A stretch of 39,447 nt of DNA from a virus. The number at the start of each line of letters is the position of its first letter. Positions within the stretch are counted from its first letter, which is position 1. The translations under genes were made by a program, and so were the position numbers. Where the stretch lies: positions 1 through 39,447 of IMG/VR virus record IMGVR_UViG_3300036864_000384; one strand, 5' to 3'. The notes beneath the pieces are model-generated. The model worked only from the letters and a program-made list of their open reading frames with translations. It did not search any database and had not been told where the DNA came from. Below, piece after piece: positions 3,713-22,832 of this stretch.

Positions 3713-5014
3713 GTGGCGCGCACGAAGGATTTCGATCGGTTCGTCTCGGCTTGCGATTACCCGGGCCTCCTCGATGAGGAGATCGTCTCCCAGTCGCTGG
3801 CCGAGTATCTGGCGGTACTCGGAGTCAAGAGGGAGATTAGGCGGCTACCCGCCGACTGGGATCTCGACACCGAAGAGCCGCTGCGCCGGTCGGTGTGGAG
3901 CATTCTGGACGATGTCGCGGCGAGGGCAGGCCGGAAGCCACCCGCCCTCGACGCCCGCGACGCCCTCGACGCCGGCGACGCCCGCGACGCCCGCGCCGCC
4001 CGCGACGCCCGCGACGCCCGCGACGCCCGCGACGCCCGCGACGCCCGCGCCGCCCGCGCCGCCCGCGCCGCCCGCGCCGCCCGCGACGCCCTCGACGCCC
4101 GCGACGCCCTCGACGCCCTCGACGCCGGCGACGCCCGCGCCGCCCGCGCCGCCCTCGACGCCCGCGACGCCCTCGACGCCCTCGACGCCGGCGACGCCCG
4201 CGACGCCCGCGCCGCCCGCGACGCCCGCGACGCCCGCGACGCCCGCGCCGCCCGCGCCGCCCTCGACGCCCGCGACGCCCTCGACGCCGGCGACGGCGCT
4301 CTGAGGCGTTTCACATCGTGGTGCATTCATCGCACTTGGCTGTGGTGGTCCTGGGATCTCTCATGGATCACCACGACGCTGATTGGGGCCCAGCAGCTCG
4401 GCCGTGACATCCCCTGGGCGCGCCCGCTCTTCGAGGCCTACATCGCCGGATGCTGGATGCTGTATTGGACCGACGACACGCTCTATTGGATCGCCAAGCC
4501 GACGGTCCATGTAGAGCAGGTCGACGGCTGGAGGCGTCTGCATTGCGAAGACGGCCCCACGCTGGAATCCGACATCGAGAATCTCTACTTCTGGCACGGC
4601 GTGCTGGTGCCGGCGTTCGTCGTGGTCCGGCCCAAGTGGATCACGGTCAAGCACATCCTGGGGGAGGAAAACGCCGAAGTCCGGCGCGTGATGATCGAGC
4701 GGTATGGGTGGGATCGCTTCCTCACGGAGGCGGGAACCCTTCTGCACAGCGATGGGTTCGGCGACCTGTACCGTTTCATCCCTGACAACGACGAGCCGAT
4801 CACCGGCGTCGTGGTCGTTAACAGCACCCACGAGCCCGACGGCAGCTTCAAGATGTATACGTTGCAGGTCCACCCCGAACTGCGGCCCCTCTATGCCAAC
4901 GACGAGGCCGGCCGACCCCGACTTGGAGAGCCGCAGGAACTGACGGCCAGAAACGCCGTGGCCTCCACCTTCGGCCTTCGCGGAGAGGAGTACCGGCCGA
5001 TGGTCCAGACATGA
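3713..5014 (+). CDS. DUF6745-type protein with a long DAR/DAL triplet-repeat linker
   Basis: The 433-residue protein starts at GTG 3713. Residues 1-75 form an ordinary N-terminal domain. Residues about 78-195 are an almost perfect three-residue repeat of the form [D/A]-A-[R/L/G], encoded by a GACGCCCGC-type minisatellite. The C-terminal 235 residues match what I know as the DUF6745 domain: a Trp-rich helix (WCIHRTWLWWSWDLSW), LHCEDGPTLESDIENLYFWH, NAEVRRVMIERYGWDRFL, and a terminal TFGLRGEEYRPM. The family is often found in phages and beside leucine-rich or pentapeptide repeat proteins; no biochemical role is known to me. The repeat block probably forms a charged helix or flexible arm, and its length is likely unstable. 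The downstream ATPase overlaps by ATGA. Confidence 0.78.
   Translation: MARTKDFDRFVSACDYPGLLDEEIVSQSLAEYLAVLGVKREIRRLPADWDLDTEEPLRRSVWSILDDVAARAGRKPPALDARDALDAGDARDARAARDARDARDARDARDARAARAARAARAARDALDARDALDALDAGDARAARAALDARDALDALDAGDARDARAARDARDARDARAARAALDARDALDAGDGALRRFTSWCIHRTWLWWSWDLSWITTTLIGAQQLGRDIPWARPLFEAYIAGCWMLYWTDDTLYWIAKPTVHVEQVDGWRRLHCEDGPTLESDIENLYFWHGVLVPAFVVVRPKWITVKHILGEENAEVRRVMIERYGWDRFLTEAGTLLHSDGFGDLYRFIPDNDEPITGVVVVNSTHEPDGSFKMYTLQVHPELRPLYANDEAGRPRLGEPQELTARNAVASTFGLRGEEYRPMVQT
3946..4302 (+). repeat. GC-rich minisatellite (9-bp GACGCCCGC-type units) inside the DUF6745 gene
   Basis: About 350 bases are built from 9-base units GAC-GCC-CGC with the variants GCC-GCC-CGC, GAC-GCC-CTC and GAC-GCC-GGC. 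Longer blocks are themselves duplicated: the peptide order DALDARDALDALDAG appears once and a close copy follows. Because the units contain no stop codon in any frame, open reading frames appear in other frames on both strands here (PAT-type, ASR-type and GVA-type repeats). I treat those as shadows. Slippage or unequal recombination should make this locus length-variable. Confidence 0.9.
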
Positions 5015-6654
5015 AGCGGTTCGTGCTGGGCACCGGCGAGGCGGGGGATCTTTCCTGCAGCCTCGAGGTCCTCGTCGACACGCGGCTGCTCATTCAGGCC
5101 AACAGCGGCGGTGGGAAGTCGTGGTGCCTGCGCCGAATCCTCGAGCAGACCCACGGCCAGGTCCAGCAGCTCGTCATCGATCCGGAAGGGGAGTTCGCGT
5201 CCCTGCGCGAGCGATTCGATTACGTGCTGGCGGCAAAGCATGGCGGCGACACCGCGGCGGATCCCCGCGGCGCGAAGCTGCTCGCCGAGCGCCTGCTCGA
5301 GCTGGGGGTCTCCGCCATCCTCGACATCTACGAGCTGAAGGCCCACGACCGGATCCGGTTCGTCAGGGCCTTCCTCGAGGCGTTGGTCGACGCCCCCAAG
5401 AGCTTGTGGCATCCCGCCCTCGTCGTGGTGGACGAGGCCCACGTCTACTGTCCACAGAAGGGCGAGGCCGAGTCCGCCGGCGCCGTCATCGACCTTGCCA
5501 CCCGGGGACGGAAGCGCGGGTTCTGCTCCATCCTGGCGACCCAGCGCCTCTCGAAGCTCCACAAGGACGCGGCCGCGGAGTGCAACAACAAGCTGATCGG
5601 ACGCACGGGCCTGGACGTGGACATCGCACGCGCAGGCGACGAACTGGGCCTGCGCACGAAGGACGATCAGCAGCGCCTGCGAGATCTCGAGCCAGGGGAG
5701 TTCTTCGGGTTCGGTCCTGCCCTGTCCAGGTCGGTGCAGAGAGTCACGGTCGGCAAGGTGCAGACGACGCACCCGAAAGCCGGCGCGCGTATCGCGTTTG
5801 CCGCGCCGCCCCCCACCGACAAGGTCAAGGCCCTGCTTCCGAAGCTGTCCGATCTGCCGGCTGAGGCCGAGGCCCGCCAGAGGACGGAGAAGGATCTGCG
5901 GCAGGAGATCGCCAACCTCAAGCGCGAGCTAACCATGCGCCCGAAGGCGATCGAGACGAAGATCGAACGGGTCTCCGTGCTGGAGCCCGACGACGTGAAG
6001 GCGCTCCAGATCATCATCAACGGCCTGGACGGCTACACGGTCCGGATAGGGGAGCTCACACGAAGCCTGGCCGCGGCGCTCTCCAAAGCCCGGGCGGTTC
6101 AGCCTGCCCCCGTCACCGTCTGCCCGCCACCGAGGAACACTCCTGCAGCCCGCCAGCCTCTCAATCGGCTCGCTCTCGCGGCCCCGTTCTACAACGGGAG
6201 CCTCGCCAAAGGCGAGCGAAAGATCCTCACCGCCGCGGCGCAGCACCAGGCCGGGGTCACCAAGGAACAGCTCACTGTGCTCACCGGCTACAAGCGCTCC
6301 TCAAGGGACACCTACCTCCAGAAGCTCACGGCTGCCGGGCTGGTTGAAAACCAGAACGGGACCATCCTCGCGACGCAGGCCGGCTTTGACGCGCTCGGAT
6401 CGGACTTCGAACCGCTTCCCACAGGAGACGCGCTGCGCGAGCACTGGATGGGGATCCTCCCGAGGGGTGAGAGAAGGATCCTCGAGCAGCTCGTCAAGGC
6501 GTACCCCGACACCCTCGAGCGCGGTGCGCTGTCGGATGCGACGGGGTTTAAGCGGTCCTCCCGCGACACGTACCTACAGAAGTTGAAGGCACGCAAGCTG
6601 ATCGAGTGCCCCGGATTCTCAGAGGTCCGGGCTTCAGAGGAGCTGTTCGGATAG
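5011..6654 (+). CDS. HerA/FtsK-type P-loop ATPase with two C-terminal winged-helix repeats
   Basis: The 547-residue product has Walker A at residues about 29-36 (QANSGGGKSW) and Walker B LVVVDEAHVYCP near 136-147. A sensor-like segment TRGRKRGFCSILATQRLSKL follows, typical of HerA/DUF87 ATPases. An Arg/Glu-rich coiled coil lies near residues 285-320. The last 150 residues contain the same motif twice, GYKRSSRDTYLQKL and GFKRSSRDTYLQKL, about 95 residues apart, each inside a predicted winged helix. That looks like an internal duplication of a DNA-binding domain. HerA-type ATPases translocate or unwind DNA, often with a nuclease; the Cas4-like nuclease three genes upstream is a candidate partner. 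It starts at ATG 5011 overlapping the previous stop. Confidence 0.85.
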   Translation: MKRFVLGTGEAGDLSCSLEVLVDTRLLIQANSGGGKSWCLRRILEQTHGQVQQLVIDPEGEFASLRERFDYVLAAKHGGDTAADPRGAKLLAERLLELGVSAILDIYELKAHDRIRFVRAFLEALVDAPKSLWHPALVVVDEAHVYCPQKGEAESAGAVIDLATRGRKRGFCSILATQRLSKLHKDAAAECNNKLIGRTGLDVDIARAGDELGLRTKDDQQRLRDLEPGEFFGFGPALSRSVQRVTVGKVQTTHPKAGARIAFAAPPPTDKVKALLPKLSDLPAEAEARQRTEKDLRQEIANLKRELTMRPKAIETKIERVSVLEPDDVKALQIIINGLDGYTVRIGELTRSLAAALSKARAVQPAPVTVCPPPRNTPAARQPLNRLALAAPFYNGSLAKGERKILTAAAQHQAGVTKEQLTVLTGYKRSSRDTYLQKLTAAGLVENQNGTILATQAGFDALGSDFEPLPTGDALREHWMGILPRGERRILEQLVKAYPDTLERGALSDATGFKRSSRDTYLQKLKARKLIECPGFSEVRASEELFG

Positions 6655-6683
6655 ACCGGCCCACCTTCCCGGAGGCCAGCACA

Positions 6684-7505
6684 GTGCCCGATAGGACGAT
6701 TCGAGAAAGAGCCCGGCGCAGCAAATCCCTGGACCGCGTGTCGGCCGAGGCCGAGCGGCTGATGTGGCGACTCCTCACCTACGCGGACGATTATGGACGG
6801 TTTCCAGCGGACCCGGATCTGATGTTGGCGGGGTGCTTCCCCAGGGCGGTGTCCAGACTCACGGCGGTGCAGCTCGTCTCCTGGTATGCCGAGCTGCAGG
6901 CCGAGGGGATCGTCGAAACCTGGTGGATCGACGGCCAGTTCTACGGTCGCCTGATGAGCTTCGAGAAGGATCAGGGAAAGCCTCGGGCGAAAAGCTCAAA
7001 GTATCCAGCGCCTTACGACGGCAAGAAAGTCCTCGACTTGGCCGTCATGTTCACATCTGCGGACACATGTTCTCAGATGAGAACATCTGCGGACACATGT
7101 CCCCGATCTACGATCTACGATCTTCGATCTTCGGATCTCGATCTACGAAACTCGTGTCCGGATCTTGATTCCTCCCCACGAGAAACAGCCACCAGCGGCG
7201 ACACGGCGACACGCCAGGGCGGGACTGTCAGATCTGAAAAGGCCGAAACCCGTAAGAGCGAAGCCCCTGCCCGGGCCGAGGTGGAGTCCACCCAGGGCGT
7301 CCTGCTGGGACTCATCGGCGCCGTTGCCCCGGCCGCTGTCCTCGTCCCCCCGAAGGTCCCAGAAGTGCCCTTCGATCCGCGTGCGGTGATCCGCCAGTGG
7401 ACCGAGAGCCTGGCCGGCGCCGCGAAGATGGAGCCCGTCGTCGGGCCCGGCGAGAAGAAACGGCGGCTCCGCCTAGCCGATCGAGCGCGCTCGCGCGGGC
7501 CGTGA
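6684..7505 (+). CDS. Phage replication-initiation/replisome-organiser-like protein
   Basis: The 273-residue product starts at GTG 6684 behind GGAGG (6671-6675). The N-terminal 110 residues contain RLMWRLLTYADDYGRFPADP, an Arg/aromatic-rich helix-turn-helix region seen at the N terminus of many phage replisome organisers, then the beta-hairpin ETWWIDGQFYGRLMSF. The middle (about residues 118-175) is low-complexity and coincides with DNA repeats that look like iterons. The C-terminal part is basic (KKRRLRLADRARSRGP). Initiator genes that carry their own origin in a disordered central segment are known from lambda O. I infer a similar arrangement. Confidence 0.65.
   Translation: MPDRTIRERARRSKSLDRVSAEAERLMWRLLTYADDYGRFPADPDLMLAGCFPRAVSRLTAVQLVSWYAELQAEGIVETWWIDGQFYGRLMSFEKDQGKPRAKSSKYPAPYDGKKVLDLAVMFTSADTCSQMRTSADTCPRSTIYDLRSSDLDLRNSCPDLDSSPRETATSGDTATRQGGTVRSEKAETRKSEAPARAEVESTQGVLLGLIGAVAPAAVLVPPKVPEVPFDPRAVIRQWTESLAGAAKMEPVVGPGEKKRRLRLADRARSRGP
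7053..7150 (+). repeat. Iteron-like repeats, candidate replication origin
   Basis: An 18-base direct repeat acatctgcggacacatgt occurs at 7053-7070 and 7083-7100, 30 bases apart. Between the copies lies a short inverted repeat CAGATG-AGAA-CATCTG (7074-7089). Immediately downstream, 7104-7146 holds at least five degenerate GATCTACG / GATCTTCG octamers. The block is AT-richer than its surroundings and lies inside the replication-initiator-like gene, as lambda ori lies in O. Direct repeats, a hairpin and iterons in this position suggest an origin, but no experiment is visible in sequence. Confidence 0.5.
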
Positions 7506-7563
7506 GGGGACGCCCCTCCCGTCCGTCCTCACCGCGTGGCAACACATCCACGGAGACGACTTG

Positions 7564-7869
7564 ATGCCCGATCAGAAGTGCACCGGAAAGCCACTCGACC
7601 TGAATCACATCCGGCAGCTCCATGCGATCCGCAAGCGGTATCTACGCCTGTCTGGATACGCGCGCGACATGGCCGCCACGCTGGAGAACTGGATCGAGGC
7701 GGCTTTGCGGACACCGCACATTTCCGAGTTGAGTGTGGGTGCGATCGAGCGACTTGAACGCGAGCTCGACACCATCGAAGCCAGCACGCAGAAGAGCTGC
7801 AACGAGAGTCTGGCCGTGCTGGAGATGGTTCTGAGTATGAGCAAGCAACCGCCGGGCCCGCCCTCATGA
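7564..7869 (+). CDS. Hypothetical helical protein (101 aa)
   Basis: This small ORF starts at ATG 7564, nine bases after GGAG in cacggagacg. A TTG lies one codon upstream but is less well spaced. The sequence is almost wholly predicted helix: IRQLHAIRKRYLRLSGYARD, ATLENWIEAALR, then AIERLERELDTIEASTQ. Two cysteines (CTGK near the start and SCNES) do not form a zinc motif. The resolvase-like gene starts within its stop codon (ATGA), so it is probably co-expressed with DNA-processing proteins. I do not recognise the family. Confidence 0.7.
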   Translation: MPDQKCTGKPLDLNHIRQLHAIRKRYLRLSGYARDMAATLENWIEAALRTPHISELSVGAIERLERELDTIEASTQKSCNESLAVLEMVLSMSKQPPGPPS

Positions 7870-8468
7870 CCCGGCTGCCGCTCATCCTCGCGATCGACCC
7901 TGCGATCTCGTGTGGCTGGGCGGTGGGAGACGCCGGCGCCGGAGCTGGCGGGCTGCAGAGATCCGGGGCGTGGAAGCTGGCCGACCCCAAGGACCATCCC
8001 GGCCAGAGGTTCGCCCGGCTGGCGGCGCTCATTCGCGAGGTTCACCTGACAACCCCGATCTCGCTGGTCGTCTACGAGTCGGGCTTCCATCGTGGCGCGG
8101 CCGCGACGCGCTCTCACTGGGGCCTGGTTGGGGTGATTCTCGGCGTCGCCGCGCGGTACCAGCTTGAGGTCCTGGCCGTGAACCCGTCGCAGCTGAAGGC
8201 CCACGTCGGTGACGGTGCGAACGACAAGGTCGTGATGATGCGCCGGTGCAAGCTGATCTACGGGCGCGACTGCAAGACGTCGGACGAGGCCGACGCGATC
8301 TGGTTGTACGACTACGCCCGCCATCTGTGGAAGGTGCCAAGAGTTGAACGGGCTCCACAATCCGCAACGCAAGACGCAAGGGGAGGAGCATCGCATGTCC
8401 AACAGAGTCACCAGCCGCAAGCTGATCTGCCAGCTATCCCCGGAGGAAAAAAACACCTTCGCGGATGA
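7866..8468 (+). CDS. RuvC-like Holliday-junction resolvase family protein
   Basis: The 200-residue product has an RNase-H-like fold signature. The first beta strand carries the catalytic Asp in LPLILAIDPAISCGWAV. A second acidic residue lies in SLVVYESGFHRGAA, and a C-terminal acidic motif in KTSDEADAIWLYDYARH. This spacing is that of phage RuvC-type resolvases, which resolve branched DNA before packaging. The last 25 codons overlap the next gene's start (8395), and that tail (after KVPRVERAP) is low-complexity, so the functional domain probably ends near residue 158. Overlap with upstream and downstream genes indicates one operon. Confidence 0.8.
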   Translation: MTRLPLILAIDPAISCGWAVGDAGAGAGGLQRSGAWKLADPKDHPGQRFARLAALIREVHLTTPISLVVYESGFHRGAAATRSHWGLVGVILGVAARYQLEVLAVNPSQLKAHVGDGANDKVVMMRRCKLIYGRDCKTSDEADAIWLYDYARHLWKVPRVERAPQSATQDARGGASHVQQSHQPQADLPAIPGGKKHLRG

Positions 8469-8982
8469 GCAGGCGCGCCTGCTTCATGAGTACGCCGAGC
8501 TCGAGCGCCAGGCGGCGGCCATCGCCAAGGGCTACCGCGAGGACCTGGAGAAGAAGTGGGAACGCATGAAGCGCGTCGCCGACATCGTCGACGCCGGCAA
8601 GGAGGAGCGCAACATCGACTGCCGCACGGTCCCGGACCACACGGCAAAGACCGTCATCTACCGCCCGCTGGCGGAAGGGCTGATCGTGCTGAACCCCGAA
8701 GCCCTCGAGCGTCCGATGACCGACGACGAGATGCAGGGTCTTCTGAGCTTCGAGGAGCCCGAGGAAGCCGCCGCTCCAATCGCGTGTGCTGTCTGCAGCG
8801 CATCGATCGAGCTTCCCACGGACTCAGGCGCCGACAACAAAGCGGATCTCTCCTGCCTGGATTGTCACTTCGGCCCGCTGTGCGAGGGCTGCTACACGAA
8901 GGCGTGCGAGCTGCACCACGCTCCGGTTCCCGTCGGCGGCGACCAGGCGGACGCAGGGGCGGGGGAGGTGGCGCATGCGTGA
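8395..8982 (+). CDS. Hypothetical protein with central coiled coil and C-terminal cysteine-rich domain
   Basis: The 195-residue protein starts at ATG 8395 preceded by GGGGAGGAG. An in-frame upstream ATG at 8344 lacks such a signal and lies deep inside the resolvase gene. Residues 10-65 form a charged helix (LLHEYAELERQAAAIAKGYR). Residues 75-120 contain TAKTVIYRPLAEGLIVLNPE and RPMTDDEMQGLL, a pattern I have seen in small phage proteins of unknown role. The C-terminal 70 residues hold CAVCSAS, CLDCHFGPLCEGC and CELHH, enough for two zinc sites. The ParB-like gene begins at 8975 inside its end. Confidence 0.72.
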   Translation: MSNRVTSRKLICQLSPEEKNTFADEQARLLHEYAELERQAAAIAKGYREDLEKKWERMKRVADIVDAGKEERNIDCRTVPDHTAKTVIYRPLAEGLIVLNPEALERPMTDDEMQGLLSFEEPEEAAAPIACAVCSASIELPTDSGADNKADLSCLDCHFGPLCEGCYTKACELHHAPVPVGGDQADAGAGEVAHA

Positions 8983-10555
8983 GGCCCGAACGCAGGCAGC
9001 GGCGCACGAGCTGCCCACGGCACTGCCGGGAGGTCTGGCACTCATGGACGTGCTTCTCCTCGACGCGATTATCCCTTCGAAGTCAAACCCTCGGACCAAC
9101 TTCGATCCCGTCAAGCTCAAGGAGCTGGAAGATTCGATCCGGCAAAAGGGCGTGCTCCAGCCGATCCTTGTGCGCACGATGAAGGACGGCAAAAACGTCG
9201 AGCTCGTCGCCGGCGAGAGGCGCGTGAGGGCGGCGCGAGCCGCGGGGCTGAAGGAGATCCCGGCCGTCATCCGGGATCTGACCGACGCCGAGGTCCTCGA
9301 GATCCAGGTCATCGAGAACCTGCAGCGCGACGACCTGCATCCCCTCGAGGAGGCCGAGGGCTACCGCCAGCTCGCCGGCGTCAAGGGCTACGACGTCGCC
9401 CGCATCGCCGAGAGGATCGGCCGGTCCGTCAAGTACGTCTACGACCGGATGAAGCTGGTCTCTCTGGTGAAGGAGGCGAAGGATCTCTTCCTGGCCGACC
9501 GCATCACCGCGGGCCACGCAATCCTGCTGGCGCGGCTGAAGCCGAAGGACCAGGCGCGGGCGATCGACCCGGAGGGCGCCGACCACCACTACGGCGGGCT
9601 GCGGGGGCTCTGGCAGGGCGAGCGCCAGCTCTTCGGCGACGGTGACGAGGAGGACCGCAAGGATCCCTATGCGAACCTGAAAGCCGTGAGCGTCCGGGAG
9701 CTGCAGCACTGGATCGACGCGCATGTGAAGCTCGAGGCACCCGACGTCGACCAGATGCTCCTTCCCGAGACGGCCGCCACGCTGCAGGCCGCGGTCGAAG
9801 AGGACGTCAAGGTCCTGCGCATCACCCGCAACGACGTCACGCCCGAGGAGCTGAGAGACGGGCCCAAGGTCATCCTGGGCCGCTCGTGGATGCGTGCCGA
9901 CGGCAAGGAGAAGTCCAAGCACTGCGACCATGCGCGCCTCGCGATGGTGGTGATGGGGGAGGGCCGCGGCGATGCCTTCCAGGTCTGCATCGATAAGAAG
10001 AAGTGCGCCACCCACTGGCCCGAGCACGTCAAGGCGGCCAAGGCGGCGGCGCGGCAGGTGAAGAAGGAGGCGGGCAAACCCGCGGCCGCGGGCAAGGTCA
10101 AGCTGCAACCGTGGGAGATCGAACAGCAGAAACGCCGGGAGGCCGAGAAGAGGGAGGACGAGGAGCGCGCGCCGATCGTGAAGGCGATGCCGCAGATCCT
10201 CGATGCGGTGGCGGAGCGCGTGAAGAAGATGCCCGCCGGCGCCAACGGGCTGCTCGCCAAGACGGTCCTGGATCAGGTGGCGCAGGCCAACACTCGGAAC
10301 GCGGCCAAGGAAGCCTCACGCGTGCCCGCCGGCAAGAGCGCCGAGGACCTCGTCCGGCATCTGGCCTTCTTCATCTTCTGCGACGGGGTCGGCTACTTCC
10401 GCCCGGCCGAGTTCATCAAGGAGTGCCGGGCCTTCGACGTGGACGTGAAGAAGATCGTCGCCGCGGGGGAGCCGAAACCGAAAAGTGCAGACGTGGTTAA
10501 AACGTCGAAGCCGGCGAAGGCGAGGAGAGCCGCGCGTCCCTCGGCGAGCTCATGA
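8975..10555 (+). CDS. ParB/RepB/Spo0J-family DNA-binding protein
   Basis: The 526-residue product has an N-terminal ParB domain. LLLDAIIPSKSNPRTNFDP and LKELEDSIRQKGVLQPILVR are followed by the GERRVRAA motif (VAGERRVRAARAAGL), then IQVIENLQRDDLHPLEEAEG and a helix-turn-helix region (VARIAERIGRSVKYVYDRMK). The GERR motif is the CTPase signature of ParB proteins. The C-terminal 300 residues are an extension rich in Lys, Ala and Glu with a possible zinc site (HCDHARLA ... CIDKKKCATHW). In phages such proteins act in partition, in replication or as ParB-type nucleases; which applies here cannot be told. The ATG at 8975 overlaps the previous stop. Confidence 0.88.
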   Translation: MREARTQAAAHELPTALPGGLALMDVLLLDAIIPSKSNPRTNFDPVKLKELEDSIRQKGVLQPILVRTMKDGKNVELVAGERRVRAARAAGLKEIPAVIRDLTDAEVLEIQVIENLQRDDLHPLEEAEGYRQLAGVKGYDVARIAERIGRSVKYVYDRMKLVSLVKEAKDLFLADRITAGHAILLARLKPKDQARAIDPEGADHHYGGLRGLWQGERQLFGDGDEEDRKDPYANLKAVSVRELQHWIDAHVKLEAPDVDQMLLPETAATLQAAVEEDVKVLRITRNDVTPEELRDGPKVILGRSWMRADGKEKSKHCDHARLAMVVMGEGRGDAFQVCIDKKKCATHWPEHVKAAKAAARQVKKEAGKPAAAGKVKLQPWEIEQQKRREAEKREDEERAPIVKAMPQILDAVAERVKKMPAGANGLLAKTVLDQVAQANTRNAAKEASRVPAGKSAEDLVRHLAFFIFCDGVGYFRPAEFIKECRAFDVDVKKIVAAGEPKPKSADVVKTSKPAKARRAARPSASS

Positions 10556-16093: not shown

Positions 16094-19000
16094 ACCGCCT
16101 TCCCAAAGGAGTCGTCCGGGCCACACCGGTTGACCCCGAAGCCCTCCTCGTCGATTCGTCCGGCCGACCGCTGCGCGCCTCCGCTCTGAGGCAAGGCGAG
16201 CGCGACTATTCGCCTGGTAAACCACTTCCGGCCACCCTGGCCCACGGCGCCGCCCCCCGCTCCACCATCCCCCCCACCTCGGCCAACCTCAGCGCGAGGC
16301 CCCGATCCTGGGCCGGCAAGGACCTCACCGCCTTTGACCAGCTGAGGGCTCTCGCCGACACCGACCTGGTGCGCATCGCCATCCAGGACGTCAAGGGGCA
16401 GATCGAGGGGATGGGCTGGGACGTCGCCCAGGTCGACGGAGAAGAGGTCACTCCCGAGCTGGCAAAGAAGATCGCCGCGGCCAAGGCCTGGATTCGAAGA
16501 CCCGATCCGCTCGCAGGCCGCAACTTCAGGGCGTGCCTGTCGTCCTGGCTCGAAGAGATCCTGGTCACAGACGCCCTGACCCTGTATCCGCTCACCGACC
16601 GCGCGCGGCGCCCGCTGGGGCTGATTCAGATAGACGGGGCCACCATCTACCCGGTGGTCGATTCTCTGGGCCGGCCCCCGCTTCCGCCCGAGATCGCCTA
16701 CCAGCAGATCGTCCACGGCCAGGTGGAGACCGAGTTCACGCTGCCCGAGCTGTGGTACCGGCCCCGGCACGCCCGGCCCGATTGTCCCTACGGCCGCAGC
16801 CCGACCGAGATGGTCCTGCTCACGGTCAACCTGGCCCTACGGTCTCAGCTCTACGACCTGACCTACTACACCGAAGGCTCCATCCCCGAAGGCATCTACG
16901 CGGTGCCCGGGTATGACAACGCCGAGCTCAACGACCTGCAGGAGAACTGGGATGCCGTCCTGGCAGGAGACGACCAGGCGCGCCGGCGGATGCGCTTTGC
17001 GCCCGAGGGTCAGTACCAGGCCACGAAGGACCGGTCGTGGAGCTACGAGTTCCAGGAGTGGCTCGCGAGGGTCATTGCCTGGGCGTTCGGCGTGTCGCCG
17101 ATGCCGATCGCCAAGGTGATGAACCGGGCCACGGCCGAGCAGATGGAAAGCTCGGCGCTGGAGTCCGGCGTCCGCCCCGTGGCCGAGTGGGTGGCGGAGA
17201 TCTTCACCGATTACCTGCAGGGGCCCCTGGGTCTCACCGATCTGAAGTTCGTGTTCGGCTCCGATGAGACGGAAGACGGCTCCCTGGTGTATCAGCGCAA
17301 CGTCGCCTACGCGGGCCACGCCGGGCTGACCCTCAATGAGTTCTTCGAGCAGACCGGAAGCAAGGCCCTGGAAGGGGAGGCCGGCGAGCTGCGGCTCATC
17401 GACACCCCAACCGGTCCCGTGTTCCTTCAGGACCTGCTCGCCCAGCGCGAGCAGTCTTTGAAGGCCGGTGACGCGAAGGTGGATTCATCCCTGATCCAGC
17501 GGGCGTTCCTCGAGGTGCCGGTCATGACCCGCGACGAGCTGCGCGCGTCAATCGGCCTGCCGCCTGTGGGGGGAGCCGAGGGGGCGGAGTTCATCACCAT
17601 CGCCCAGGTCGGTCCCTCTGTCCCGGCAGCGCCAGTCGCCGGCGACCCCGGAAACGCCTCTCCCGCGGATGCGGCAGGGGAGACCGCTGGCGCCACCGTA
17701 GCAGCCGACGATGAGGTCCCAGAGCCCGATCCTGCCGAGGCGGATCTCAAGCGCTGGCAGGCGTTTACCCTCAAGAGACTGAAGGACGGCCGCCCGGTAC
17801 GAAAGTTCGCATCCCAGGCTATCCCATCCACCCTGCACCGGGCGGTCAACTCGGCCCTCGAGCGCATACCGAAGGACGTCTCCCTCGAGGACGCCTCGCG
17901 CGAGGTGCGGGCGATCTTCGACTGCGCCACCCTGCAGCGGCGGATGGAGAAGAGCCCGCCGGCGTCGCTGGTGAAGCCCACCAGGAAGATCGCCAAGGTG
18001 ATCGCAGCCTGGCTCGCGGACCAGAAGGACCGGGTCATCGCGGCTGCGCTGGAAGAGCTGCCCGACCCGAGCAAGGCCGCCGGGGCACCGCTGAGAAAGA
18101 AGATCTCCGACCTCGAGCTCAACGCCGAGGACCTGGTCGATGACCTCTCGCGCGAGATCGCAAAGGCCCTGACCGCGGGCGCCGGCGAGACGGCCAGCAC
18201 CTCTGGATTCTCCCTGGACACCGTCCCCGAGGCGGCGGTGGCCTACGCCAACGAGCGGGCCGCCGAGCTGGTGGGCATGAAGTGGGTCGATGGCGAGCTC
18301 GTCACCAACCCCAACCCGCGCTTCGCCATCACCGAGAGGCTGAGAGAGGACATCCAGGCGAAGGTGACCAAGGCGATAACAGAGGGCTGGTCGCCCGATG
18401 AGCTGAAGGCCGACCTGGCCAAGATGTTCTCCCCCGCCCGGGCCGAGACCATCGCCCGCACCGAGACCGGACTTGCATATCAGGAAGGCGCGCTCAAAGT
18501 TTACGAAGCAGGGGGGCAGGACTTCGTCGACATCCTCGACGGGGCCGGGTGCCTTCCGACGGGGCATGATGACGACGCGCCAGAGGCGGACTCGAGCGCC
18601 AAGGGTGTCGTGCAGACGGAAAGTCAGGCCGACGGTCAGGTCTGGACCCTGGCCCAGCTGAGGGAGCACCGCCTGGGGCATCCCAACTGCCTGCCTGGCT
18701 CAGTTGAAGTGGTTGCACCGAACCGCACCGCGGCGTTCACGCGGTGGTTTGACGGGGAAGTGGTCGTCCTTCACACAGCCGCGGACGATCTCCTCACCTG
18801 TACCCCGAATCACCCGGTACTGAGCGGGAGGGGGTGGGTAGCGGCGAAGGACCTTCGAGAGGGTGACTATGTAATTCGCAGCCTCGATTCTGAGCGGGTA
18901 GCGCGCCTCGTCGATCCAGACTATGACGAGGCTCCAGCCCGAATCGAGAAGGTAGCGGGTTCGTTCCTGGAATCGCTCCCTGTGGCGACCCACGCCGTGC

Positions 19001-19533
19001 CAGCCTCCACCGAAGACTTCCACGGCGATGGAGCCGGAAGCGAGATCTACGTTGTAGGGTCCAACCGCCTTGCACGGGGTGAAGGGGGTCCTGCCCCGAT
19101 GCAGCATCTTTCCCAGCCGGATTTCGATCTCGGATCGATGGGCTCGGGTGCGTTCCTTTCCCAAGGCGCGCCGCGCAAGATCCTCAGCCGTTCGCTTTAT
19201 CCCTCGCAGGGCATCGTGCGCAGCGGCAGCACGCCGCGCGCGCTCCCGCGGCCCGATGCGAGCCTGATGGAGACGGAGGCTGTCCGCCTGTGTTCGCATC
19301 TTGAGCCCAGCAGTTCGAAAGGCACTGCGGACGGCGCCGCCCGAGACTCCGAGGTCGCGGCCGATGGCATCACTGGACTCTCCGGCCTGATAGCGCCGGT
19401 GAAGGTCACGAAGATCCGAAGGGAGAAGTTTTCCGGTCATGTCTACAACCTCGAGACCGAACAGGGGTGGTACGTGGCCGGAGGCATCGTAACACACAAC
19501 TGCGTGCGCGGGACGATCCCGCACGAGGAGTAA
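16090..19533 (+). CDS. Portal protein fused to a MuF-like head-morphogenesis domain, interrupted by an intein; GTA start
   Basis: 1147 residues before splicing, about 876 after. The portal domain occupies roughly residues 85-480 (SWLEEILVTDALTLYPLTDR; YGRSPTEMVLLTVNLALRSQ; IAWAFGVSPMPIAKVMNR). The C-terminal MuF-type domain has AETIARTETGLAYQEGALKV and, across the intein, the HPNC/VRG motif. A portal-MuF fusion is known in phages; the portal forms the DNA channel and the MuF part helps head assembly. Start: GTA 16090. An in-frame TGA at 16075-16077 leaves only GGA-ACT-CAA-CAT before it, and the next usual start is 93 codons later, inside the folded region. GAGG at 16077-16080 is the ribosome-binding site. 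The overlapping ATG-TAA at 16088 is out of frame. Confidence 0.92.
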   Translation, partial: VNRLPKGVVRATPVDPEALLVDSSGRPLRASALRQGERDYSPGKPLPATLAHGAAPRSTIPPTSANLSARPRSWAGKDLTAFDQLRALADTDLVRIAIQDVKGQIEGMGWDVAQVDGEEVTPELAKKIAAAKAWIRRPDPLAGRNFRACLSSWLEEILVTDALTLYPLTDRARRPLGLIQIDGATIYPVVDSLGRPPLPPEIAYQQIVHGQVETEFTLPELWYRPRHARPDCPYGRSPTEMVLLTVNLALRSQLYDLTYYTEGSIPEGIYAVPGYDNAELNDLQENWDAVLAGDDQARRRMRFAPEGQYQATKDRSWSYEFQEWLARVIAWAFGVSPMPIAKVMNRATAEQMESSALESGVRPVAEWVAEIFTDYLQGPLGLTDLKFVFGSDETEDGSLVYQRNVAYAGHAGLTLNEFFEQTGSKALEGEAGELRLIDTPTGPVFLQDLLAQREQSLKAGDAKVDSSLIQRAFLEVPVMTRDELRASIGLPPVGGAEGAEFITIAQVGPSVPAAPVAGDPGNASPADAAGETAGATVAADDEVPEPDPAEADLKRWQAFTLKRLKDGRPVRKFASQAIPSTLHRAVNSALERIPKDVSLEDASREVRAIFDCATLQRRMEKSPPASLVKPTRKIAKVIAAWLADQKDRVIAAALEELPDPSKAAGAPLRKKISDLELNAEDLVDDLSREIAKALTAGAGETASTSGFSLDTVPEAAVAYANERAAELVGMKWVDGELVTNPNPRFAITERLREDIQAKVTKAITEGWSPDELKADLAKMFSPARAETIARTETGLAYQEGALKVYEAGGQDFVDILDGAGCLPTGHDDDAPEADSSAKGVVQTESQADGQVWTLAQLREHRLGHPNCLPGSVEVVAPNRTAAFTRWFDGEVVVLHTAADDLLTCTPNHPVLSGRGWVAAKDLREGDYVIRSLDSERVARLVDPDYDEAPARIEKVAGSFLESLPVATHAVPASTEDFHGDGAGSEIYVVGSNRLARGEGGPAPMQHLSQPDFDLGSMGSGAFLSQGAPRKILSRSLYPSQGIVRSGSTPRALPRPDASLMETEAVRLCSHLEPSSSKGTADGAARDSEVAADGITGLSGLIAPVKVTKIRREKFSGHVYNLETEQGWYVAGGIVTHNCVRGTIPHEE
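18688..19500 (+). mobile_element. Intein (271 aa) inserted at the HPN/C site of the MuF domain
   Basis: The intein begins with Cys (CLPGSVEVVAPN) and has a block-B Thr-x-x-His in LLTCTPNHPVLSGRGWVAA. It ends with block F YNLETEQGWYVAGGIVTHN and its terminal Asn, followed by extein Cys+1 (TGC 19501). These are the N-terminal nucleophile, block-B His, and terminal His-Asn plus Cys+1 needed for splicing. The middle section contains the usual conserved AGSEIYVV and SNRL segments of Hint-domain inserts in phage head proteins, with no LAGLIDADG or HNH motif in this reading frame. The endonuclease is instead encoded on the other strand. Splicing would rejoin HPN to CVRGTIPHEE, the normal MuF C terminus. 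Confidence 0.92.
18700..19440 (-). CDS. Antisense homing-endonuclease-like gene (Vsr/EDxHD-type fold) inside the intein
   Basis: A 246-residue minus-strand ORF lies wholly within the intein. The start is ATG at 19440, eight bases after GAGG on that strand (the open frame extends to 19524 but lacks a better start). The N-terminal 55 residues contain a helix-turn-helix (SSDAIGRDLGVSGGAVRSAF). A Lys/Arg-rich linker follows, then a nuclease-like core: RLGKMLHRGRTPFTPC, YNVDLASGSIAVEVFGGGWH, RHRERFQERTRYLLDSGWSL, VIVWIDE. The order V-D ... V-E-V-F-G-G-x-W-H ... R-x-x-x-L-x-x-x-G-W is that of Vsr-like homing endonucleases as I remember them. Such conserved-looking protein motifs antisense to an equally well-formed intein would be unlikely by chance. 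It probably cuts intein-free portal genes to drive homing. Confidence 0.82.
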   Translation of the reverse strand: MTGKLLPSDLRDLHRRYQAGESSDAIGRDLGVSGGAVRSAFRTAGLKMRTQADSLRLHQARIGPRERARRAAAAHDALRGIKRTAEDLARRALGKERTRAHRSEIEIRLGKMLHRGRTPFTPCKAVGPYNVDLASGSIAVEVFGGGWHGVGRHRERFQERTRYLLDSGWSLVIVWIDEARYPLRIEAANYIVTLSKVLRRYPPPPAQYRVIRGTGEEIVRGCVKDDHFPVKPPRERRGAVRCNHFN

Positions 19534-19540
19534 GACCCAT

Positions 19541-19609
19541 GTAGCTGTTCACTCAAAGGTAAACACAGGCGCGCTGGCGCGGCCGGGAGGCATCCATGGC
19601 CGCCCGTGA
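19541..19609 (+). CDS. GTA-start leader peptide (22 aa) overlapping the next gene's start
   Basis: GTA 19541 follows GAGGAG (19525-19530) by ten bases and opens a 22-codon ORF (AVHSKVNTGALARPGGIHG...) that ends at TGA 19607-19609, 14 bases past the ATG (19596) of the next gene. The ribosome-binding site of that gene (GGGAGG) lies inside the leader and encodes its PGG residues. The likely role is translational coupling: a ribosome started at GTA opens or delivers initiation to the ATG gene, placing it under the same control. The peptide itself may have no function. A second leader of the same design occurs before the tail tube gene. Confidence 0.6.
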   Translation, partial: VAVHSKVNTGALARPGGIHGRP

Positions 19610-20042
19610 CATCGACCTTCTGACCAGCGCAGCCCAGACCGCCACCGCCCAGGGCGGCGAAAAGACGATCCCGACCCTCACGATGGCCGCCGTCACCGTC
19701 GACGTCACGGCCAAGAGCGGCACGGGCACCCCGACGCTTTCTGTCTGGCTCCAGGGCAAGGTCATGTTCAACGGCGTGGAAATCTGGGTGGACATTCCCT
19801 ACGACGTACTACTCGTCCACGAGATGTCCCCGACTACCGCCGACCAGGCCGCCATCACGCCCTCGGAAGACGTCGTCACCACAGCGAGGGGCCGGAATAT
19901 CGTCAACGTCTACACCGGCACACCGCCGGCGAGGTTCACCGCCATCTACAAGCACCTGTCCTACTTGGCCGTCCGGCTGGCATGGGCGATCTCCGGGACA
20001 ACGCCGTCTTTCACTTTCGCCGCCGCGTTGAGCGGCAAATAG
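19596..20042 (+). CDS. Probable head protein (148 aa), candidate decoration or stabilising protein
   Basis: It starts at ATG 19596 after GGGAGG. The sequence is predicted mostly beta: LTMAAVTVDVTAKSGTGTPT, LSVWLQGKVMFNGVEIWVDI, FTAIYKHLSYLAVRLAWAIS, ending FTFAAALSGK. It has no cysteines. It lies between portal and protease/capsid genes, where phages often encode a small beta-rich virion component. Identity as a decoration protein is inference from fold type and position. It is preceded by the GTA leader peptide that overlaps its start. Confidence 0.6.
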   Translation: MAARDIDLLTSAAQTATAQGGEKTIPTLTMAAVTVDVTAKSGTGTPTLSVWLQGKVMFNGVEIWVDIPYDVLLVHEMSPTTADQAAITPSEDVVTTARGRNIVNVYTGTPPARFTAIYKHLSYLAVRLAWAISGTTPSFTFAAALSGK

Positions 20043-20051
20043 GAGCTCCAT

Positions 20052-21353
20052 GTAAAAGACCTCAAGATATTCGTCCCCCTCACGAAGATTGACGCCAAGC
20101 AGCAGATGGTCTACGGCGTGCTCGCCGAAGAGGCCGTCGACAAATCCGGCGAGATCTTCGACTACGAAACCAGCAAGCCCCTGTTCCAGGCGTGGTCATC
20201 CGACTTCGAGAAGCGCACGACCGAGGCGGGCCAGGAAGTCAGCAAGGGGAATCTCCGGGCGATGCACGAAGGCATCGCGGCCGGCAAGTTCACGCAGATG
20301 GTGTTCGACGACGCGGCGAAGAAGATCATCGTCGCCGCCCACGTCGTGGACAAAGCCGAGTGGGAGAAATGCGAGAAGGGCGTCTACACCGGCTTCTCGA
20401 TCGGCGGCAAGTACGAGAAGCAGTGGATGGACGAGCAGCTCAAGAAGGTCCGCTACACGGCGCGCCCGGCCGAAGGTTCGATCGTGGACAACGCCTGCAT
20501 GTATGGGGCGACGTTCAGCGCGATCAAGGCCGACGGGGCGGAGGAGCTTCGCAAGTTCGTCGGCGCCCCGGCCCAGAAGGACGCGGCCGCTCTCGCATCC
20601 ACGGCTGACTCGGTCCTCGAGGGGCTCAAGAACCTCCTGGTGCAGGCTTCGATGATGGAGGGGGATCCGTCCGCCTGGACGATCCACGACATCGCGGAAG
20701 CCATGTCGCGCGTGCTGTCGGTGAAGGGGGAGGCCCGCTACAAGATCGTGGTGGAGATGGACGACGTCGCCATGGGCGCGCCCGCGGGGGACCTCAAGAA
20801 GGTCGACGAGGCCAAGCCGACCGATCCCACAGCTCCAGCAGCTGATCCAGTTCCCGATCCGGCCAAACCGGCGGGGGAGAAGCCCTCGGGAGAGGCACCG
20901 GCAGCCGACCCAGTCGCTGTCGATCCGGCGAAGGCGGCAAGCGCCGACACCCTGTCCAAGCTCATCAACGAATCGTTCCAGAAGTCCCTCGAGTCTCTGA
21001 CTCAGACCCTCACCAAGCATCTCGACGACCAGGTCAAGGCGGTGAAAGACGGCATCCCGGAGACGGTCAGCACAACCGTGGGCGATGCCGTGAAGACCGC
21101 GATGACGCCGATCGAGAAGTCGATGGAGGAGGTCAAGAAGGATCTCGAGCTCGTGAAGGCAACGCCGGCGGCCGTAGGTCGTCCGGTGCACACAGCAGGA
21201 AAGACCATCGGCAGCGGGCCGGGTGGAGGCGGCGGATCCGCCCCCATGGAGGTGGTGCAGAAGTTCCTCGACGAGGCGCAACGCTCCGGCAAGGTCGATT
21301 CCCAGGCAATGAAGCAGCTGCGGCTCCAAGCGGCCACGGCGGCCATGCCCTAA
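20052..21353 (+). CDS. XkdF-like prohead protease with C-terminal scaffold-like region; GTA start
   Basis: 433 residues. The N-terminal 170 residues resemble XkdF-type serine proteases of phage heads: FVPLTKIDAKQQMVYGVLAE, candidate catalytic His in NLRAMHEG, and candidate Ser in GVYTGFSIGGKYE. After residue 250 comes a Pro/Ala/Asp-rich linker, then a coiled coil (TLSKLINESFQKSLESLTQT onward) of the kind found in scaffolds. Protease-scaffold fusions mature the capsid. Start: GTA 20052, six bases after AGGAG. The in-frame stop TAG (20040-20042) is three codons upstream and no conventional start lies between. The first usual start (ATG 20106) would delete the first beta strand. The overlapping ATG-TAA at 20050 is out of frame. 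Confidence 0.88.
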   Translation, partial: VKDLKIFVPLTKIDAKQQMVYGVLAEEAVDKSGEIFDYETSKPLFQAWSSDFEKRTTEAGQEVSKGNLRAMHEGIAAGKFTQMVFDDAAKKIIVAAHVVDKAEWEKCEKGVYTGFSIGGKYEKQWMDEQLKKVRYTARPAEGSIVDNACMYGATFSAIKADGAEELRKFVGAPAQKDAAALASTADSVLEGLKNLLVQASMMEGDPSAWTIHDIAEAMSRVLSVKGEARYKIVVEMDDVAMGAPAGDLKKVDEAKPTDPTAPAADPVPDPAKPAGEKPSGEAPAADPVAVDPAKAASADTLSKLINESFQKSLESLTQTLTKHLDDQVKAVKDGIPETVSTTVGDAVKTAMTPIEKSMEEVKKDLELVKATPAAVGRPVHTAGKTIGSGPGGGGGSAPMEVVQKFLDEAQRSGKVDSQAMKQLRLQAATAAMP

Positions 21354-21380
21354 CAGAACACCAACGATCAGGAGATCTAT

Positions 21381-22832
21381 GTAAACGGACTGCTTCAATC
21401 CATCAGCGAGGAATCTCTCGCAAAGGCGGCCGAGCTCTTCAAGGGCGCCTTCGACGTCAAGAAGACGGCCATCGATCTTTCCACCGGCCTGACCGGTGTG
21501 AACCTCGAAGCGCCGGCCAAGCTGCTCTACCCGCTCCTGTCTCCCTACCGACAGACCGTCGGCAGGAAGGTCATGGGCGGAAAGAACTCCGAGCACAAGC
21601 GAATCCTCACCGTGAAACCCTCCGGATCCCTGTTCGCCGCGGAAGGCGTGCGGGCAACCGGCTGGGCGATCACGAAGGATGCGCCCACGGTTTCGTTCAA
21701 GTCCATGGGCCAGCTCGGTGACTACACCTGGGAATCCGAGATCGCCGGCCGCAACTACGAAGACATCAAGCAGCGCACCAGGACGCTGAACCTTCTGTCG
21801 GCGATGCAGCTGGAGGAAGGCGCGATCTTCGGCGGAAACGTCACGGCCCTGGGCACTCCCACCGGACTGACCACGACTCCAGCCACCACGGGCGCCGCGG
21901 CGGTCGGGGGCGTGGGAATCGCGGCGGCGACCTACCAGGTCCGCGTGGCGGCACTCAGCCACGAGGGCATGAGGCAGGCCTCCAGAGTTGCCCGCGTGGA
22001 CAAGGCGGCGGCGCAGAACTTCGACGCTTCCCTCGTTGTTCCCACGCAGGGCGGCACCCTCGGCATCACCGCGGCTCAGGCCAACGTGGCGGCGGTGGTT
22101 GGCGGTTCGACCGATGGGATCATCGGTCTGACGTGGAACCCGATCGCCGGTGCGTTCGGCTTCGCGGTCTACGTGGACAACCACCTGCAGTGCATTTTGC
22201 CATCCACGACCAAGTGCACACTCACCGGCATCAACACCACCGGGGAGGCGGTACCGGGGGCGGACAGCTCCGCCAACGCGAACGCCTTCAACGGGATGGT
22301 CGCTCAGATCGTGGCGGCCGCAACCGGGTCCATGAAGAAGCGGGTCAACACGAATCTGGGCACGCCCTCGGGCAACCAGATCACCGTGATCGCCGATGCC
22401 ATCCAGGACGGCTACGACCAGTTCAAGGTCCAGCCGGATCGGTTGCTGGTGGCGTGGGACGTCCACGACCAGCTCGATCGCAAGCTGGCCTCGGTGGCCA
22501 ACGACCGGATCAACCTGAACTACATGGTCGGGCCGGAAGGTCCGAAGTTCGAGCAGCTCAGGTTCTACCCCTCGCCGATCGACGGACGACAGATCCCAAT
22601 CGAGCAGCAGCCCAACCTCTACGGAGGCCAGGTCCTGGGCGTGCTCGACGGTGTGCCGATCCCCGACAGCGAGATCCCGGCAGCATGGCAGATGCACATG
22701 GGCAGCGACTGGGTGCTGCTCGACTATGCGGTCGTCAACCCGAAGCAGGAGTTCGAGAGCAGGTCCTTCGGCGCTCTGGCGGGGTATGCCCCGGCGCTTC
22801 AGTTCATCCTGTACGACGTCCAGCGGGCGTAA
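21381..22832 (+). CDS. Major capsid protein (HK97-fold type) with an inserted Ig/FN3-like domain; GTA start
   Basis: 483 residues. An N-terminal arm precedes LLYPLLSPYRQTVGRKVMGG, then a core with FKSMGQLGDYTWESEIAGRN and EDIKQRTRTLNLLSAMQLEE. C-terminal capsid blocks include NQITVIADAIQDGYDQFKVQ and DWVLLDYAVVNPKQEFESRS. Residues about 150-280 form a Gly/Ala/Thr/Val-rich insertion with AAATYQVRVAALSHEG and WNPIAGAFGFAVYVD, as in fibronectin- or Ig-like surface domains. Start: GTA 21381, six bases after AGGAG. The frame is closed by TAA at 21351-21353 with no usual start between, and the next one (GTG 21498) would remove 39 residues. The most abundant virion protein thus appears to depend on GTA initiation. 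Confidence 0.88.
   Translation, partial: VNGLLQSISEESLAKAAELFKGAFDVKKTAIDLSTGLTGVNLEAPAKLLYPLLSPYRQTVGRKVMGGKNSEHKRILTVKPSGSLFAAEGVRATGWAITKDAPTVSFKSMGQLGDYTWESEIAGRNYEDIKQRTRTLNLLSAMQLEEGAIFGGNVTALGTPTGLTTTPATTGAAAVGGVGIAAATYQVRVAALSHEGMRQASRVARVDKAAAQNFDASLVVPTQGGTLGITAAQANVAAVVGGSTDGIIGLTWNPIAGAFGFAVYVDNHLQCILPSTTKCTLTGINTTGEAVPGADSSANANAFNGMVAQIVAAATGSMKKRVNTNLGTPSGNQITVIADAIQDGYDQFKVQPDRLLVAWDVHDQLDRKLASVANDRINLNYMVGPEGPKFEQLRFYPSPIDGRQIPIEQQPNLYGGQVLGVLDGVPIPDSEIPAAWQMHMGSDWVLLDYAVVNPKQEFESRSFGALAGYAPALQFILYDVQRA

Follow-up and report, generated by a model that had tools for sequence, protein, structure and literature searches.

The viral record IMGVR_UViG_3300036864_000384, analyzed over its full 39,447 nucleotides (the window), contains a gene for a portal-MuF fusion protein that is interrupted by an intein, and the strand opposite this intein carries a 246-codon open reading frame (ORF) that very probably encodes the homing endonuclease of a mobile intein. 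The endonuclease of an intein is usually an in-frame domain; here the homing endonuclease gene (HEG) lies antisense to the intein and entirely within it. The HEG codons are in exact antiparallel register to the intein codons (register 0), and approximately 92% of the continuous intein is double-coding. The ATG and the GAGG that an earlier note on this DNA had assigned to the minus-strand ORF are present at the positions given in Table 1, as is a TGA stop.

On the plus strand, the host ORF matches Phage_portal (E 2.4e-12, aa 44-300) and Phage_Mu_F (E 1e-4, aa 661-711) in Pfam, which places the intein in the MuF part of the fusion and corrects the earlier assignment of the host as a portal gene. 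The insertion has a Hint domain with Cys1 and a TxxH motif, and it ends with block F, SGH-VYNLETEQGWYVAGGIVTHN (of the GH-VYNL type), and a terminal HN, followed by Cys+1 at 19501. Pfam identifies Intein_splicing in the window intein (E 5.7e-8) and in 17/17 relatives; no sense-strand endonuclease domain is found by Pfam in the window intein or the 17 relatives, in agreement with the prior description of a well-formed intein without an endonuclease motif. An AlphaFold2 model of the intein folds only at the two Hint ends, and residues 107-223, which occupy the position of the endonuclease domain in conventional inteins, are predicted to be disordered. The inteins of the relatives are 262-331 aa long, with the start placed wrongly by the automatic Cys1 detection in at least two loci (L079 and L085). 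Additionally, portal and MuF form one ORF here, and they are mostly separate genes in the annotated phages that were inspected.

The minus-strand protein is predicted to have a Vsr/PD-(D/E)xK-like nuclease fold, based on an AlphaFold2 model (28 homologues) with a predicted local distance difference test (pLDDT) score of 89.6. The top-ranked Foldseek match of this model is the catalytic domain of I-Bth0305I (3r3p; E 4e-3, probability 1.00). VIA-align yields Z scores of 10.4 for Vsr (1cw0; 114 aa, 2.5 Å), 9.2 for 3r3p (94 aa, 2.6 Å) and 9.0 for NGO0050, and these nuclease scores exceed nearly all others, a Toxoplasma mitoribosome protein also reaching 9.0. A profile search returns the helix-turn-helix (HTH) protein 2lvs (6.8e-8), 3hrl (1.8e-4) and 3r3p (0.003), the alignment to the last of which spans the catalytic core. 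The MTES_1575 nuclease is detected in 24/28 family members and a resolvase-type HTH in 16/28, with one or two N-terminal HTHs forming a separate DNA-binding module. The HTH and the Vsr/EDxHD-like core proposed in the earlier note are thus borne out by both profile search and fold comparison. Among the putative catalytic residues, which may correspond to the EDxHD signature, D132 is conserved in 43 of 43 family members, E106 and E141 in 42 each and H148 in 34. At the W147-H148 position, the Guernseyvirinae have W-A, as does the I-Bth0305I chain. In some Gordonia and Pseudomonas branches (L070, L071, L083 and relatives), FGGGWH is replaced by HRSAQHP, YSIHP or HSARYNP with D132 and E141 retained, which hints at altered or lost catalysis.

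The openness of the minus frame in this window proves nothing, because the DNA is GC-rich and in-register stretches of 130-535 codons are open on the antisense strand of all 15 window genes checked; with intein codons resampled synonymously from extein usage, the frame is open by chance with P ~0.15. The length of an antisense ORF is therefore meaningless in this phage (genes checked across 297-36658), and an 833-aa minus-strand ORF at 20196-22697 probably reflects the same openness. The proof of the minus-strand gene comes from its relatives and not from the window alone. In AT-richer phages, an antisense frame would be open by chance with a probability of 1e-8 to 1e-13 per locus.

A search with the minus-strand protein retrieves 46 IMG/VR loci at 29-52% identity (55 with an alignment as the query), and 112 GenBank phage records contain an HEG homologue. 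The latter include records of phages of Salmonella, E. coli, P. aeruginosa, Gordonia, Mycobacterium, Vibrio, Haemophilus/Aggregatibacter, Cronobacter and Pantoea; further homologues are present in one Massilioclostridium genome and one "plasmid" of Ca. Promineifilum. At 65/65 loci of the first set, at 11 further loci and in the plasmid relative, a long ORF runs opposite the HEG with the codons in register 0, and wherever this ORF was read, it encodes a MuF protein containing a Hint domain or intein. The GC content of the overlap regions ranges from 38% to 69%. The two-strand arrangement is conserved in phages of several bacterial phyla. Homologues elsewhere and a minus frame free of stop codons among close relatives were the checks that the earlier note proposed for its gene: the homologues exist, and the frame is open in most loci examined, a stop in the HEG next to an open intein being found in L042, L043, L051 and L059-L063. 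All 20 loci retrieved with an intein query also hold the antisense gene, with a single stop in six (L051 and L059-L063, which include near-identical contigs); this query was built partly from the mirrored motif described below, and its results are a sample biased towards HEG-bearing inteins. Free-standing HEG relatives did not turn up in viral, GenBank-phage, plasmid or genome-contig sequences, which were scanned with either one query or a small number of short peptide patterns.

Every annotated GenBank-phage match falls under a head/structural or hypothetical coding sequence. In the record of E. coli phage Snoke, the intein is annotated and the antisense gene is absent from the annotation; in one Salmonella phage record, only a fragment of the HEG is annotated, as hypothetical. 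The plasmid relative, "Plasmid III" of Ca. Promineifilum breve (NZ_LN890657.1, L139), has genes for terminase, capsid and minor head proteins, with the intein and the antisense gene in the last of these, and this replicon looks like a phage or phage-plasmid. Another relative (L137:3222-4394) has a MuF gene apparently with two inteins, the end of the other intein (...VPVHN|SQTC) lying just upstream of the HEG-bearing one.

In register 0, position 3 of the HEG codons faces position 1 of the intein codons, so that constraint on one protein and constraint on the other should produce opposite substitution patterns. For nearly every close pair, the differences are most frequent at HEG position 3, followed by positions 1 and 2 (for example, 58, 34 and 15). 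When single changes are classified by their effect on both proteins, the omega values in the overlap are 0.14 (0.12-0.18) for the HEG and 0.36 (0.30-0.44) for the intein. The HEG omega is 0.12-0.27 in all regions. The intein value differs along the overlap: it reaches 0.90 across from the HEG linker (HEG residues 53-100), drops to 0.46 across from the nuclease core and is 0.2-0.3 at the Hint-proximal ends. The adjacent N-extein serves as the control: a fictitious antisense frame has an omega of 0.89-1.14 and MuF itself 0.14-0.19, and 38 changes involving stop codons occur in the extein pseudo-antisense frame versus none in the overlap. The codon-substitution check that the earlier note had suggested thus reveals purifying selection on either strand where the genes overlap, the adjoining extein providing a neutral control.

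Individual residues show the same two-sided constraint. R49, G117, R160 and G168 of the HEG are conserved where the intein residue varies, and the intein columns opposite HEG residues 203, 206, 212, 213 and 229 are conserved where the HEG varies. The conserved intein string EDFHGD mirrors the nuclease motif, with E/K opposite Phe, D/H/Y/N opposite Val and F/L opposite Glu. The earlier statement that each base serves two proteins is accurate for the reading frames but not for the constraint, which is uneven, the disordered middle of the intein being nearly free.

The start signals of the HEG also appear to be embedded in intein codons. An ATG or GTG lies opposite the block F position preceding VYN/VYD in 39/46 distinct loci, and the intein His opposite the HEG start is kept in 35/40. 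A Shine-Dalgarno sequence just upstream persists where block F reads YDISS, YDASS or YDVSS and not YNLQT. The observed length of the match to the anti-Shine-Dalgarno sequence is 4.5, versus 3.0 under synonymous resampling (46 loci, Wilcoxon P 1.5e-7, uncorrected for kinship among the loci). In the loci that lack the His, namely L036 (AAAGGAGGAGAC-ATG), L083 and L084, an ATG is located a few codons downstream.

The intein is a precise optional insertion, and intein-free alleles are found in three phage groups and in a relative of the window gene. One stretch corresponding to most of the joined intein flanks is present in 270/329 Salmonella records, 75/145 Gordonia records (at most 97% identical) and 23/38 Pseudomonas records (at most 98%), and among the matches listed the flanks form single uninterrupted pieces. 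In Gordonia, for example, phage Fosterous has the intein and phage Geodirt, with 97% identical flanks, lacks it. An intein-free homologue of the window gene in IMG/VR (L140; 42% identity over 761 aa) reads straight across the site as ...LGHPN|CVRGT.... The usual insertion site in MuF is N|C-[RK]-[CS]; a second site, within D-x-R-T...C, is occupied in E. coli phage fEg-Eco06 (L082) and Mycobacterium phage Sejanus (L072). Snoke, which belongs to the same genus as fEg-Eco06, bears its intein at the N|CR site instead. Distances between HEGs correlate more closely with those between intein ends (Mantel r 0.75) than with those of the neighboring extein (r 0.61), and some similar HEG-intein pairs reside in very different MuF proteins.

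The following mechanism best explains these results. The plus strand would be translated within MuF, a capsid protein, from which the intein would excise itself by splicing; the intein consists of a Hint domain and a long loop predicted to be disordered. The minus strand would be transcribed and translated into a separate protein with an HTH and an EDxHD/Vsr-type nuclease, the His codon of block F doubling as the HEG start codon and other block F codons as the Shine-Dalgarno sequence. When a co-infecting phage carries a MuF gene without the intein, the nuclease would most likely recognize its N|C site and cut there; repair templated by the copy that has the intein would then bring in the intein and the endonuclease gene together. 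The claim in the earlier note that splicing and homing are written on opposite strands receives support from the homologues, the two-strand selection and the profile and fold matches; homing itself is what we infer. It is likely that these elements form a separate class of mobile inteins across phages of several phyla, probably of a single origin, defined by a full opposite-strand overlap in fixed register, with block F co-opted as ribosome binding site and start and with EDFHGD mirroring the active site.

If the intein were the sole gene, the antisense family would be a by-product of a conserved, GC-rich sense protein read in register, and the long in-register stretches in every window gene checked, together with the chance probability given above, are what such an explanation predicts. 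It is nevertheless extremely improbable and was rejected on the codon-position counts, the two-frame rates and the extein control. Substitutions pile up at position 3 of the HEG codons in nearly every close pair, the extein pseudo-antisense frames are neutral and acquire stops, and conservation is higher in the antisense protein than in the middle of the intein. Moreover, this protein is confidently predicted as a known nuclease fold, with profile matches to nuclease families, and the minus frame is open also in phages of 38-47% GC. A real nuclease with a role other than homing, such as attack on host DNA, superinfection exclusion or repair, is very unlikely: Vsr-type folds are also found in repair enzymes and certain free-standing phage endonucleases exclude competitors, but the gene occurs only in an optional insertion for which clean intein-free alleles exist, it tracks the intein and not the host gene, it is disrupted at some loci that keep the intein, and Foldseek gives a homing endonuclease as its closest solved relative. 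The broken copies next to an open intein are expected in a homing cycle. They could also, with the loss of His148 in some branches, point to a former HEG that is now inactive in most lineages and stays open only because the intein strand must stay open. This reading is quite improbable, because an open sense frame does not exclude antisense stops (found at 394/2561 Leu/Ser codons of the extein), the HEG omega of 0.14 is obtained over recent pairs, and E106, D132, E141, W147 and H148 are all intact in the window copy.

Several points weigh against a mobile intein with an antisense endonuclease. The Guernseyvirinae/Vibrio branch has Ala or Ser in place of H148, and other branches also have substitutions there, so some relatives need not be active. 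No sigma-70-like promoter is detected on either strand of 18500-20100, where a terminator scan was equally empty and uninformative. The omega rates derive from single-difference codons of related pairs, which is simpler than a full codon model. The absence of antisense-stop codons at Leu/Ser positions of the overlap (0/2122, versus the extein count above) is conditional, the region having been defined as open, and weight is therefore placed on the per-locus probabilities and the substitution data. Other known arrangements were also tried and rejected: a group I intron with an antisense HEG (18300-19900 gives no hit to Rfam at E 0.1), a usual mobile intein with an in-frame endonuclease (none by Pfam, and a middle predicted to be disordered), a split intein or fractured gene (the sense ORF is continuous) and a mini-intein of ~130-160 aa without an endonuclease (the window intein and its relatives are longer and have the antisense endonuclease).

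Table 1. Coordinates of the intein, its host gene and the antisense gene in the window.
Feature	Position	Strand	Basis or remark
Portal-MuF fusion ORF, host gene split by the intein	16369..19533	+	Pfam
Exteins of the portal-MuF ORF	16369-18687 and 19501-19533	+	
Intein, 271 aa	18688..19500	+	Motifs, Pfam, AlphaFold2 fold of Hint ends
Intein Cys1	18688-18690	+	Start reads CLPG
TPNHPVL, intein block B	18802-18822	+	Motif
Intein middle, residues 107-223, predicted disordered	19006..19356	+	AlphaFold2 pLDDT mostly 22-50
Cys+1	19501-19503	+	Motif
Antisense HEG, 246 codons, fully within the intein	18700..19440	-	ORF, relatives, omega
Shine-Dalgarno GAGG, 8 nt upstream of the ATG	19449..19452	-	Opposite NLE codons of Hint block F
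HEG ATG start codon	19438..19440	-	Reverse complement of CAT (His of F-S-G-H-VYNL, block F)
HTH, HEG residues 6-47	19300..19425	-	2lvs profile match, HTH families, AlphaFold2 helices
Vsr/EDxHD-like nuclease domain (predicted), HEG residues 100-222	18775..19143	-	VIA-align, Foldseek, MTES_1575
Putative catalytic motif D132...E141-VFGGG-W147-H148	18997..19047	-	Conservation; opposite intein PASTEDFHGD
HEG TGA stop	18702-18700	-	Opposite intein codon 5

Elsewhere in the window, the region 3713-10552 encodes a DUF6745 protein, a HerA/DUF87-like ATPase and a ParB-like protein.

If the proposed arrangement is correct, the rule that intein endonucleases are in-frame domains is broken, and homing and splicing evolve as separate proteins from the same DNA. 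It would also be a clear and evolutionarily deep example, from phages, of an antisense gene overlap over the full gene length, in which selection can be measured on either strand against a neutral control in the adjoining sequence. Gene callers would be overlooking a whole family in many sequenced phages, the annotations of which show at most the intein. The idea is directly testable because intein-bearing and intein-free relatives share laboratory hosts, foremost Gordonia terrae 3612. Dassa and colleagues reportedly described, in 2009, both the EDxHD/Vsr-like homing endonuclease family and fractured genes in which a free-standing HEG lies between the halves of a split intein. A large outgroup of this family occurs in phage group II introns (PMC12350094, published in 2025). 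Antisense HEGs are also documented in nuclear group I introns, among them intron L2066 of Didymium squamulosum, where I-DsqI was expressed and cut the intron-free allele (PMC9548176). No antisense endonuclease gene in an intein is reported in the open-access full texts searched, and an earlier report elsewhere is possible. Whether prokaryotic antisense proteins are functional is an open question (PMC7457138), on which the present overlap bears.

A comparison with these systems reveals what is shared and what differs. The window gene has in common with EDxHD/Vsr-like homing endonucleases (I-Bth0305I, 3r3p) the Vsr-type fold, the separate DNA-binding modules and the residence in phage mobile elements, but it lies antisense within an intact intein, overlapping it over the whole gene length. 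Mobile inteins with in-frame LAGLIDADG or HNH domains likewise contain a Hint domain, a precise optional insertion in a conserved site and an endonuclease within the element, whereas here the opposite strand encodes the endonuclease as a protein of its own and the sense loop is predicted to be disordered. In the I-DsqI intron, too, the HEG and the splicing element are on different strands; however, this intron is an RNA-spliced element of eukaryotic ribosomal DNA with a His-Cys box enzyme, the HEG of which lies in a peripheral loop, with no second protein from the same bases. Fractured genes also physically tie a Vsr-like HEG to an intein in phage genes, but their intein is split and their HEG non-overlapping, whereas the intein described here is continuous and ~92% double-coding.

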